DNA from: Hyphomicrobiales bacterium
GTDB taxonomy: Bacteria; Pseudomonadota; Alphaproteobacteria; Rhizobiales; Xanthobacteraceae
Assembly: GCA_016201085.1 (NCBI GenBank)
Contig: JACQDO010000083.1
Span: 1 to 6,847, forward strand
DNA length: 6,847 bases
Direction: 5' to 3'
The notes beneath the pieces are model-generated. The model searched no databases. It was given only the letters and a program-made list of their open reading frames with translations, and was not told the origin of the DNA. A program made the position numbers and the translations under genes. This document shows, in pieces, positions 4,305 through 6,847 of the stretch. How positions within the stretch are numbered: position 1 is the first letter of the stretch; each line of letters begins with the position of its first letter.

Positions 4305-5210
4305 ATGGCCAACACCTCGATGGACTGGGACAAGCTGAAAGTGTTTCACGCCGCGGCGGAGGCAGGCTCCTTCACCCATGCCGGCGAGCGGCTCGGGCTG
4401 TCGCAGTCGGCGGTTTCGCGCCAGGTTTCGGCGCTGGAATCCGAGCTGTCGGTCTCGCTGTTTCACCGCCACGCCCGCGGCCTGATCCTCACCGAACAGG
4501 GCGACATGCTCTACCGCACGGCGCATGAAGTGTTCATGAAGCTGGAGGCGGCGCGCACCAAGCTCACCGACAGCCGCGAGCGGCCGAACGGCGAACTCAA
4601 GGTCTCCACCACGCCCGGCATTGGCGTGAACTGGCTGACCCCGCGGCTCGGCGAATTCCTCGATCTCTATCCGGACATTCACATCACGCTGATCACCACC
4701 GACGAAGAGCTCGACCTCGCCATGCGCGAGGCCGATGTCGCCATCCGTCTGCGCCAGCCGACCCAGCCGGACCTGATCCAGCGCAAGCTGTTCTCGGTGC
4801 ATTTCCATGCCTACGCTTCACCCGACTATCTGAAGCGGTTCGGCACGCCGCGCACGCATGAGGAGCTCGACAAGCACCGCATCGTCATACTCGGCGGCAA
4901 TGTGCCGGCGCATTTCGCCAACCGGCGCTGGCTGCTGGAGGTCGGCCGCGAGGCCAAGGATCCGCGCGTGCCGAAGCTGTCGATCAACAACGTGCTCGGA
5001 CTGCTGCGCGCCTGCCAGCGCGGTTTGGGCGTCGCGATGCTGCCGGACTATCTGGTGGAGGAAAACGGCGGACTGGTGCAGTTGTTCGGCGACGACGACA
5101 CGCTCGCGCTCGATGCCTTCTTCGTCTATCCGGAGGAGCTCAAATCGGTGGCGCGCATCCAGGTGTTCCGCGATTTCCTGGTGGCGAACGCGCAGCGCTG
5201 GCATTTCTAG
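4305..5210 (+). CDS. LysR-family regulator, LsrB/VtlR-like
   Basis: LysR-type transcription factor of 301 residues. The winged helix-turn-helix covers about 6-66 (DWDKLKVFHAAAEAGSFTHA, LGLSQSAVSRQVSALESEL, LFHRHARGLILTEQG); a coiled linker helix and a periplasmic-binding-like effector domain (about 97-301) follow. The DWDKLKVFH start, FHRHARGLILTEQG and RLRQPTQPDLIQRKLF resemble rhizobial LsrB and Brucella VtlR as I remember them. Those regulators affect oxidative stress, envelope and host interaction, and VtlR controls small transcripts. The gene begins 3 bp after trxB, with no clear ribosome site, so coupled translation is likely. ATG at 4320 (residue 6) is an equally possible start and matches the usual LsrB N-terminus. 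It has a single cysteine, C237, so any redox sensing would need a disulfide between subunits or another mechanism. Confidence 0.9.
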   Translation: MANTSMDWDKLKVFHAAAEAGSFTHAGERLGLSQSAVSRQVSALESELSVSLFHRHARGLILTEQGDMLYRTAHEVFMKLEAARTKLTDSRERPNGELKVSTTPGIGVNWLTPRLGEFLDLYPDIHITLITTDEELDLAMREADVAIRLRQPTQPDLIQRKLFSVHFHAYASPDYLKRFGTPRTHEELDKHRIVILGGNVPAHFANRRWLLEVGREAKDPRVPKLSINNVLGLLRACQRGLGVAMLPDYLVEENGGLVQLFGDDDTLALDAFFVYPEELKSVARIQVFRDFLVANAQRWHF

Positions 5211-5253
5211 AACTTCAATGCGGCAAGAGGTCGCCCACCGTTCGCTGCGGCAA

Positions 5254-5271
5254 GCGGTGCCCGCTCACCGC
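5254..5271 (+). terminator. Weak candidate terminator after the trxB-lysR unit
   Basis: GCGGTG (5254-5259) and CACCGC (5266-5271) form a perfect 6-bp stem with a 6-nt loop, 44 bp past the lysR stop. A loose T-rich stretch (5276-5285) follows. The stem is short and the T-run broken, so termination here is possible but weak; the strong terminator at 5443-5471 would stop any read-through. Confidence 0.3.
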
Positions 5272-5312
5272 CAATTCTCGATTTTGACATGGCAGACATG
5301 CGACACGATGCG

Positions 5313-5341
5313 TTGCCGGACTCAATCATCGCTCGCATAAT
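5313..5341 (+). promoter_or_regulatory. Sigma70-type promoter of the small RNA
   Basis: TTGCCG (5313-5318) and CATAAT (5336-5341) are separated by exactly 17 nt, matching 4/6 and 5/6 of consensus. The predicted start is at about 5347-5349. No open reading frame with a ribosome site follows, but a structured stretch and an intrinsic terminator do. A GANTC site (5319-5323) lies in the spacer, so CcrM methylation could affect it. Confidence 0.6.
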
Positions 5342-5347
5342 TCGCAA

Positions 5348-5471
5348 CAGCTGAAGCACTGGATGTATCCTCCCAGACTCAACCGGTGCGCAGCATGTTC
5401 CCCTCTGGAAGATGTTGCCGGCCCCCACGCCGGCACGTTGAGACCGGGCCCTTCACGGGGCCCGGTTTTTT
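5348..5471 (+). ncRNA. Predicted trans-acting small RNA with anti-Shine-Dalgarno loops
   Basis: A free-standing transcript of about 124 nt is predicted between a good promoter and a strong terminator. Its stem-loops run in series. SL1: GCACTGG (5356-5362) with CCGGTGC (5383-5389), with a 20-nt loop containing TCCTCCCA (5368-5375). SL2: GCAGCAT (5390-5396) with ATGTTGC (5412-5418), one G-G mismatch, then TTCC/GGAA closing a CCTCT loop. SL3: TGCCGGC (5416-5422) with GCCGGCA (5429-5435), sharing 3 nt with SL2. SL4: the terminator. CU-rich motifs exposed in loops are typical of rhizobial trans-acting sRNAs that cover ribosome sites (AbcR/alpha-r15, NfeR1/alpha-r14, MmgR/alpha-r8, Rfam suhB). I cannot say which family applies, or whether it is new. 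No convincing coding potential is seen. The role is inferred; transcription is strongly suggested by the paired signals. Confidence 0.65.
5443..5471 (+). terminator. Strong intrinsic terminator
   Basis: ACCGGGCCC (5443-5451) and GGGCCCGGT (5458-5466) form a perfect 9-bp stem with the 6-nt loop TTCACG, running directly into TTTTTT (5466-5471). This is the clearest intrinsic terminator in the window. It sits 233 bp after lysR, too far to be its simple end, and fits the 3' end of the small RNA. Confidence 0.92.
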
Positions 5472-5802
5472 CAGGCTGAGGACGGACGGTCATGCTGCCG
5501 AGATCATGCTGCCCCGCGATCCTCGGACGTTCGGAAGCCTCATCACGAAAAAGTAATCCGGGAAAAGCCATAATATAGGTCCAGGAACCTGGGCCCGACC
5601 GCTCGTTGCTTTAGAATCGCGCGTGAAATCGGAAGAAAATATTGTTTCCGCGTGGTGTTCGGTTACCCGTGCAAAATAGCCACACTGCGGATGGGTTCGC
5701 GCGTGTTACGTATTGTGTAACTGATGCAGGACTATCGGTTAGGCGAACGCGGTAATATAAGGGGGACAAGGGGACCCTTAGCTGAATGTTGGAGGATTAT
5801 CG
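5472..5802 (+). other. 331-bp leader upstream of the L,D-transpeptidase gene, no gene seen
   Basis: I find no supportable gene here. It is more AT-rich than its surroundings and holds several small symmetric elements: a 10-bp direct repeat TCATGCTGCC (5490-5499, 5504-5513); a GGTCCAGG/CCTGGGCC inverted repeat (5578-5595); a dyad CGGAA-n11-TTCCG (5630-5650); GTTAC-n7-GTAAC (5705-5721); and TAAGGG/CCCTTA (5758-5763, 5775-5780) just before the ribosome site. A TATAAG (5756-5761) could serve as a -10 box, but no good -35 lies 16-18 nt upstream. An envelope-stress or cell-cycle regulator may act here, but none is identifiable. Confidence 0.4.
5791..5796 (+). promoter_or_regulatory. Ribosome binding site fixing the GTG start
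   Basis: GGAGGA sits 6 nt before GTG (5803-5805). It selects this start: the frame then gives a clean signal peptide, and no ATG in that frame lies near. GGAGGAT (5791-5797) is exactly complementary to ATCCTCC in the first loop of the upstream small RNA. Confidence 0.8.
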
Positions 5803-6847
5803 GTGATAAGTGTTCGTTTTGACCGTCTTTTGACCTCTAGCGCGCTCGGTCTGGTATTGGCGCTGGGAAGCCATGCTGGCTTGGCCCAGCAGCCCGAACA
5901 GAAGATCGAGGCCGTGGCCCCGGTAGCCGCCCCCGCACCGCCCGCATCCCTGGGCACGCAGGATCTCGCGCCCAAGCCGAATCAGGCGGCTCCGACCGAA
6001 GCCGCCAAGACAGAGCCCGCCAAGACCGAGACCGCCGCGCCGGCCGCTAGCGCCGACAGCGCCGTCTCCGACAAATTGCGCGAACTGATCGCCAGCAAGC
6101 AATTCGACCGTACGGTCAGCCGCAAAGCCGACCGCGACGGCGTCGAGTCGTTCTATAAGGCGCGAAATTATGCCCCGCTGTGGCTCACCGCCGGCGCCGT
6201 CAATGAGCGTGCCAAGTCGGCGATCGCCACTCTGGCGCGGGCCGACGCCGTGGGTCTCGATCCGAGCGATTATCCGACGCCCGATTTCAAATCGGCGACG
6301 ACGCCCGATGCGCAGGCCGATGCCGAGCTCAAGCTCACCGCCGCGGCGCTCACTTTCGCACGTCAGGCGCAAATCGGCCGCATCCACTACACCCGCGTCA
6401 GCGCCGACATCCAGTTCGAACTCAACGCGCCCGAGCCGGCCGCGGTGCTGGCCAAGCTTGCCGAGGCCGGCGATGCCGGCCAGGCGCTCGACAGCTACAA
6501 TCCGCCGCAAGACGAATTCAAGGCGCTCAGAGCCAAGCTCGCCGAATTGCGCGCCAACGGCGGCGCGCTCGCCAAGCCGGAGGAAGAGAAGAAGCCGGCG
6601 CTCGTGCACGTCCCCGAGGGCAAGACCATCCTGCGTCCCGGCATGAAGGATGCGCGCGTGCTCGCGCTGCGCCAGCGTCTCAACATTGCCGGCGACAAGA
6701 ACAGCGATCTTTACGACGACGCGGTGCGCGATGCGGTGAAGGCGTTCCAGACCAGCGCCGAACTGAACACTGACGGCAACCTCGGCCCCAACACGGTCAG
6801 GGCGCTGAACGGCGAGAAGCAAGTCGCCAGGGGTCCGAGCGCCGATC
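5803..6847 (+). CDS. YcbB-type murein L,D-transpeptidase, N-terminal part (partial at right edge)
   Basis: Secreted enzyme family that forms 3-3 cross-links in peptidoglycan or attaches proteins to it in the periplasm. The frame is open for 348 codons to the window end. Visible: a signal peptide (1-28) with RFDRLL, a hydrophobic core ALGLVLALG and likely cleavage at GLA|QQ; a low-complexity Ala/Pro/Lys/Glu linker (about 32-87, including repeated AKTE units); a conserved N-terminal scaffold domain from about 88 with SFYKARNYAPLWL (116-128) and AQIGRIHYTRVSADIQ; and a peptidoglycan-binding type 1 domain (about 274-340) reading LRPGMKDARVLALRQRL, then VKAFQTSAELNTDGNLGPNTV. The catalytic YkuD domain with its HGC cysteine motif would lie beyond the window. 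Domain order and the LWL motif identify the family well; whether the catalytic domain is intact cannot be seen. GTG start with GGAGGA 6 nt upstream. Confidence 0.9.
   Translation, partial: MISVRFDRLLTSSALGLVLALGSHAGLAQQPEQKIEAVAPVAAPAPPASLGTQDLAPKPNQAAPTEAAKTEPAKTETAAPAASADSAVSDKLRELIASKQFDRTVSRKADRDGVESFYKARNYAPLWLTAGAVNERAKSAIATLARADAVGLDPSDYPTPDFKSATTPDAQADAELKLTAAALTFARQAQIGRIHYTRVSADIQFELNAPEPAAVLAKLAEAGDAGQALDSYNPPQDEFKALRAKLAELRANGGALAKPEEEKKPALVHVPEGKTILRPGMKDARVLALRQRLNIAGDKNSDLYDDAVRDAVKAFQTSAELNTDGNLGPNTVRALNGEKQVARGPSAD

Follow-up and report, generated by a model that had tools for sequence, protein, structure and literature searches.

We consider it highly probable that the window, as we call the whole 6,847-nucleotide stretch analyzed here, carries a single-copy, divergent AbcR-type small RNA (sRNA) gene downstream of lsrB, the gene of its likely activator; the sRNA is predicted to mask ribosome-binding sites on mRNAs that encode substrate-binding proteins of transporters. 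AbcR sRNAs are a known kind: work in Sinorhizobium, Agrobacterium and Brucella treats them as a link between LsrB/VtlR and nutrient uptake; what is very likely added here is a divergent branch, beside lsrB, that scores below the family threshold. Such a branch would extend the AbcR circuit to a large bacterial group, would permit better annotation via a new covariance model, and would part the old elements of the circuit (box, two seeds and terminator) from the changed ones (copy number and activator cysteines). The source organism is Pseudolabrys-like and belongs to the same genus as genome G006; NCBI assigns Pseudolabrys to the Xanthobacteraceae. A literature search that did not have the genus name Pseudolabrys among its terms found no AbcR sRNA placed in Xanthobacteraceae, and a prior report is possible. 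A review states that a small number of S. meliloti sRNAs are found in Xanthobacteraceae or Bradyrhizobiaceae, in a passage that does not name AbcR (PMC7143759); another sRNA family has been reported there (PMC3927594).

The window contains, in order, carB (partial), greA, a minus-strand lrp-type gene, trxB, a lysR-type gene and an L,D-transpeptidase gene. The names carB, trxB and L,D-transpeptidase were given from the translations, with a Pyr_redox_2 match for trxB and Scaffold and PG_binding_1 matches for the transpeptidase. Between greA and the lrp-type gene, two small frames overlap on the minus strand (1927-2292 and 2231-2524), which by eye resemble a toxin-antitoxin pair of the ParE/RelE and ParD types, respectively. 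A preliminary description of this DNA had placed a candidate sRNA between lysR and the L,D-transpeptidase gene, and the gene map agreed: 592 bases separate the end of lysR (5210) from the transpeptidase start (5803), and the sRNA stretch lies inside them (Table 1). The lysR product is an LsrB/VtlR orthologue and the likely activator of the sRNA; it gave a single match at E ≤ 1e-80 when its own genome was searched. The order trxB-lysR-sRNA resembles that of A. tumefaciens, trxB-vtlR-abcR1-abcR2 (PMC7486931), and a place downstream of lsrB/vtlR is shared with AbcR1/AbcR2 of Sinorhizobium, Agrobacterium and Brucella. A protein-coding reading of the stretch, offered by two reverse-strand ORFs (5326-5571 and 5207-5428) without Pfam match, was rejected; the frequency of indels in the stem regions also argued against coding potential.

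Table 1. Features of the lsrB-sRNA region (window coordinates)
Feature	Position	Strand	Basis or remark
LysR-type regulator, LsrB/VtlR orthologue, 301 aa	4305..5210	+	Pfam HTH_1, LysR_substrate
VtlR/LsrB box GCAT-N3-TG-N3-T	5289..5301	-	ATGGCAGACATGC on +; sole match in the window, both strands
Sigma-70-like promoter TTGCCG-17-CATAAT	5313..5341	+	9/12 matches; start near 5348 inferred
AbcR-type small RNA gene (predicted), ~124 nt	5348..5471	+	ar15 full-length sub-cut-off match 5349-5470; model R1 match
Stem-loop 1	5350..5394	+	pairs 5350-5353/5391-5394 and 5356-5362/5383-5389
aSD1 UCCUCCC, loop of stem-loop 1	5368..5374	+	sequence; exact in 62/76 sequences
aSD2 UUCCCCUCUGG	5398..5408	+	sequence; UUCCCCUCUG exact in 68/76 sequences
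Stem-loop 2	5416..5435	+	pairs 5416-5421/5430-5435; two-sided changes in 5/6 pairs
Intrinsic terminator	5443..5471	+	pairs 5443-5451/5458-5466, six T 5466-5471; two-sided changes in 5/9 pairs

The MFE fold of 5340-5475 has four hairpins at -64.9 kcal/mol (z -4.88), a value that none of 200 shuffles equalled. All four stem-loops of the preliminary description are in this fold, but the comparison of relatives backs three of them. The small second hairpin, in whose loop CCTCT (5402-5406) had been placed, forms in the MFE fold with 4 bp (TTCC 5398-5401/GGAA 5407-5410) but is absent from the centroid fold, and its 5' arm scarcely varies, leaving little for covariation to show. The placement of CCTCCC in the loop of stem-loop 1 was borne out by sequence and MFE fold, as was that of the last stem, a 9-bp core running into six T; a simple terminator scan did not return this terminator at 5443.

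Several of these elements match published AbcR RNAs. The S. meliloti AbcR motifs are aSD1 CUCCUCCC and aSD2 UUCCCCUC, the latter sitting between stem-loops in the published model (PMC8844928), and the UCCUCCC motif is also named elsewhere (PMC3712013). The window sRNA shares aSD1 UCCUCCC in the 5' hairpin loop, aSD2 UUCCCCUC between stem-loops 1 and 2 (5398-5405), and three hairpins of which the last is a Rho-independent terminator; known AbcR RNAs measure 114 and 121 nt. Of the two Hfq-binding signatures of the family, a U tail and an A/U-rich linker, the window gene has six T at 5466-5471, but the linker CGUUGAG (5436-5442) ahead of the terminator, with A/U at 3/7 positions, is not A/U-rich, whereas an A/U-rich linker at this place is said to be kept in ar15 relatives (PMC3712013).

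Loci of relatives were picked by the lysR protein, 80 being kept of 226 encoding a relative, so the RNA itself had no role in their selection. Labels among them include Pseudolabrys, Rhodoplanes, Pseudorhodoplanes, Variibacter, Xanthobacteraceae and unclassified Hyphomicrobiales, and also Rhizobium sp. Q54, Rhodopseudomonas and Proteobacteria. TTCCCCTCTG followed lysR by no more than 500 nt in 61/80 loci and by 1.3-2.3 kb in 6 more. Model R1, made from the window and 24 lysR loci, matched the plus strand downstream of lysR in 75/80 loci, and in 51 of the 56 outside its training; on the window, which belongs to its training set, it scored 128.9 bits (5343-5476). The five loci missed were L049 and L069, in which the sequence after lysR measures just 226 and 97 nt, respectively, and L046, L068 and L083, in which it is longer. 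The motif counts in Table 1 refer to 76 sequences, namely the window and 75 loci.

Across 62 sequences, a set chosen for carrying TTCCCCTCTG, 17 columns were invariant, and since the stretch is both conserved and covarying, it stands beyond chance. In a 25-sequence clade alignment, whose structure was taken from the window fold and is biased towards it, the 25 pairs of the three stems were 95.2% paired and 13 of them had changed on both sides, against a shuffle mean of 3.2 (0/500 shuffles reached 13). Shifting the partner by 1 to 3 columns in the same alignment lowered pairing to 26-45%. Stem-loop 1 was the least supported, with two-sided changes in 3/10 pairs and an inner helix that was 86.7% paired. 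In a wider alignment (A4), two-sided changes affected 24/25 pairs, with a larger bias since it was fitted to its own model; MAFFT misaligned stem-loop 1 in the 62 sequences, so that RNAalifold recovered only the other two stems. All three stems covaried. Pair-preserving changes in stems combined with near-constant loops characterise a functional sRNA whose seeds are conserved.

The promoter-like element named in the preliminary description was present as described, with TTGCCG at 5313-5318 and CATAAT at 5336-5341. One promoter-like match in 5000-5900, against 0.5 expected from shuffles, says little alone; by-eye comparison of relatives showed the site to be preserved among them. The box listed in Table 1 has the published LsrB/VtlR form GCAT-N3-TG-N3-T (PMC7486931) and, if the sRNA starts at 5348, spans about -59 to -47. 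By this predicted start, it sits close to the published PabcR1 box of S. meliloti at -61 to -49, whose removal lowered activity more than 22-fold in a promoter bound by LsrB (PMC8844928); the two sources conflict over S. meliloti (PMC7486931 and PMC8844928). A strict box on either strand, no more than 90 nt upstream of the model start, was found in 70/76 sequences against 0.5 expected from shuffles, and 69 of the 70 fell between -52 and -64. Five of the six sequences lacking it carried CATGGCTGACAT near that place (L013, L031, L040, L076 and L091), and one was without (L086).

In Rfam, ar15 (RF02345) matched the window at 5349-5470 over the full model (1-112) with 19.9 bits (E 1.3). Since the curated cut-off is 40 bits, about twice this score, the window gene is not a member of RF02345 by Rfam's rule. 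The whole-window search gave five matches, all sub-cut-off, of which ar15 was third by score and the only alphaproteobacterial family. On 261 bases (5260-5520), it ranked best of four families (E 0.051), and the only other alphaproteobacterial one was Atu_C8 (E 1.6). The suhB family (RF00519), also put forward in the preliminary description, gave no match, either in the window (E up to 5) or in 5260-5520 (E up to 10). Likewise, the NfeR1 family (alpha-r14) had no Rfam match in the window or in 5260-5520. NfeR1 resembles the window sRNA as an S. meliloti anti-Shine-Dalgarno sRNA targeting transporter mRNAs, but has three identical anti-Shine-Dalgarno motifs (PMC8844928), whereas the window has one UCCUCCC and one differing motif.

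Among 60 genomes including that of the source organism, ar15 was found at E ≤ 0.01 in nine. G058 alone exceeded the cut-off, and the remaining eight scored 25.3-34 bits; the source genome was not one of the nine in this search, whose filters were stricter. G058, a genome that appears Rhizobiaceae-like, has three ar15 genes above the cut-off, two of them ~206 and ~429 nt downstream of lsrB. This tandem pair (L001 1230-1830, minus strand) has a GCAT...ATGC box upstream of each gene, and the third copy lies on another contig. The tandem pair shows both anti-Shine-Dalgarno motifs and GCATAACTGGCATGC upstream. In the reverse direction, R1 gave only 22-31 bits on the G058 AbcR genes, and opposite-strand matches in terminator regions reached 27 bits, so that this direction of testing is weak on score alone.

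Judged by place, promoter box, motifs and architecture, the window gene is homologous to AbcR. The earlier proposal of a trans-acting riboregulator of ~124 nt, possibly AbcR, thereby gained support from the best-ranking ar15 match, synteny, the LsrB box, both anti-Shine-Dalgarno motifs and covariation. The window gene differs from known AbcR systems in its Rfam score, in its linker, in having one copy in an 88.6%-complete genome instead of a tandem pair, and in an LsrB without the cysteines of the G058 protein. The sub-cut-off score, together with stem sequences mostly unlike those of the G058 copies, would also fit a new sRNA family, non-homologous to AbcR, that converged on CU-rich anti-Shine-Dalgarno motifs and stands beside lsrB by chance. 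We regard this as improbable, given the shared neighbourhood, a regulator box that is similarly spaced, the agreement of both motifs in order and structural place, a full-length model match, and the other genomes that score 25.3-34 bits on ar15.

To follow the AbcR-type gene across the order, model R2 (81 sequences) was run on 249 genomes at E ≤ 0.001 with filters that lose weak matches. It matched 102 genomes and gave no match at this threshold in 147, and lsrB was found in 228/249 at E ≤ 1e-80. The place of lsrB was known for at least 89 of the 102 positive genomes. Among the matches listed, the sRNA lay on the same strand 85-885 nt downstream of lsrB (median, 234) in 63/89 and elsewhere or on another contig in 26/89; low-scoring cases among these 26 may be chance matches. 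The eight same-family genomes of other genera among those listed all had an sRNA match. In six genomes of the genus g20 (G054, G136, G167, G195, G219 and G242), the pair has come apart: the sRNA shares the strand of lsrB but precedes it by ~21-26 kb. Six loci (L017, L018, L020, L022, L023 and L024) have the sRNA 1.3-2.3 kb after lysR; the gene lying between the two in L020 (4966-6021) encodes a protein of 351 aa with a His-rich tail, drug/metabolite transporter-like by eye. In the source genome, R1 at E ≤ 10 gave four matches: one on the window gene, one antisense to its terminator region, L124, and a fourth at 12.2 bits (E 2.05). L124, considered as a second sRNA copy, was judged to be a terminator behind a transporter-like frame. 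As the assembly is 88.6% complete, an undetected second copy is possible.

This distribution also bears on the reading that the stretch is merely the 3' UTR of lysR with its terminator, perhaps processed and lacking a promoter of its own. The sRNA is on the same strand, 138 nt past the lysR stop, and no terminator was listed between them, although the scan missed the one at 5443 as well. Such a reading is very unlikely in view of the conserved box in 70/76 sequences, the gene that intervenes in L020, the separation of the sRNA from lsrB in several genomes (1.3-2.3 kb after or 21-26 kb before lysR), and loops that are invariant too, beyond the terminator. That the stretch acts in cis as a leader of the L,D-transpeptidase gene that follows (start 5803) is hardly credible: it is on the same strand and the ldt site GGAGGAT (5791-5797) could pair with AUCCUCC of aSD1, but the terminator ends ~330 nt upstream of ldt, and GGAGGA before ATG is commonplace, with 224 places in the genome.

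The window LsrB is 55% identical to the LsrB-type protein of G058 encoded beside the over-cut-off ar15 genes. Cysteines 147 and 276 of the G058 protein lie in the motifs DCAIRL and FCYPDE; both positions are valine in the window LsrB and in 80/80 loci. A third G058 cysteine (247) is missing from the window and all 80 loci, and a different cysteine, at window residue 237, is present in 80/80. C144 and C273 are conserved in LsrB of A. tumefaciens, S. meliloti and B. abortus, and in A. tumefaciens replacement of C273, not C144, increases peroxide sensitivity (PMC11975290). Because the numbering offset is equal, C144 and C273 probably correspond to 147 and 276 of G058. As these 80 loci come from the closest relatives, the absence of the cysteines is claimed for this lineage only, in which the input signal of LsrB may differ. 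Quite tentatively, a single-copy, LsrB-driven AbcR might be ancestral and widespread in Hyphomicrobiales but missed by Rfam, with an activator without redox cysteines and an original input other than peroxide, and with redox control and duplication arising later in the rhizobial/Brucella branch; we hold this broader scenario to be possible, but rather doubtful.

In S. meliloti, transporter mRNAs are repressed by base pairing of both seeds at their ribosome sites (PMC8844928), and AbcR RNAs depend on Hfq (PMC3712013). For the window sRNA, we infer expression, LsrB control, Hfq binding and repression along the same lines. LsrB would bind the box and switch the sRNA on, Hfq would stabilise it, and the two motifs, aSD1 from the stem-loop 1 loop and aSD2 from the segment separating the stems, would pair with ribosome-binding sites. 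This pairing would block translation and promote mRNA decay, by which nutrient uptake would be tuned. In enterobacteria, a single sRNA, GcvB, targets many amino-acid transporter mRNAs; we know of no place or regulator that it has in common with the window sRNA, and the likeness is one of analogy only. GcvB has been cited as a parallel (PMC8844928).

In the source genome, a livK-like gene (G000:C178, L160/L299) has CCAGAGGGGAA before AAAGAATG, and CCAGAGGGGAA is an 11-nt perfect complement of 5398-5408 at the ribosome site. The computed seed pairing of this leader, -22.5 kcal/mol, exceeded that of every other leader among the 36 scored. AbcR1 has livK among its published targets (PMC3712013); pairing there is most likely via aSD1 (PMC8844928), whereas aSD2 is predicted for the window sRNA. 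This livK pairing is the sole support that we count from the target tests. GAGGGGAA-N2-9-ATG occurred at 10 places in the source genome, against 2 for the reversed control; five of the ten frames (2-54 codons) share the repeat CAAGGGGAGAGGGGAA, one is livK-like, and four have 15, 70, 272 and 399 codons. For AGAGGGGAA and the reordered control GAAGGGGAA, 36 genomes were searched and the 22 of the same genus retained, matches of the 14 others being excluded and overlaps counted once. By N-termini read by eye, ~11/44 AGAGGGGAA loci and 9/46 control loci preceded starts of transporter substrate-binding proteins, a non-discriminating test, as the control was a poor choice, having AGGGGAA in common with the seed complement, and several of the nine seem to be orthologues of one gene.

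Further comparisons concerned Peripla_BP_6 genes, for which 21 leaders were scored from 25 matches (L294, L295, L297 and L301 were excluded as the same gene as L300 or as lacking a 5' part). These 21 outpaired 15 LysR leaders on both seeds (p 0.0008 and 0.0001), but the LysR leaders have weak ribosome sites, and for aSD2 21/200 scrambled seeds equalled the real one. Among GGAGGA-before-ATG sites, GGGAGGA was present in 8/10 Peripla_BP_6 genes against 88/214 others (p 0.018, a post hoc choice; some sites are entered twice among the 96 and 224 places, and the start was corrected for one of the 8). GGGAGGA, the complement of UCCUCCC, in many substrate-binding-protein leaders is not clearly above what strong ribosome sites would lead one to expect. 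The ldt ribosome site in the window, which complements AUCCUCC over 7 nt, is likewise likely to be merely a strong Shine-Dalgarno sequence. The repeat CAAGGGGAGAGGGGAA recurs in 11/44 AGAGGGGAA loci (L157, L158, L159, L163, L182, L190, L194, L228, L233, L239 and L240), where it mostly precedes short or unlikely frames and is perhaps a dispersed repeat or part of a terminator.
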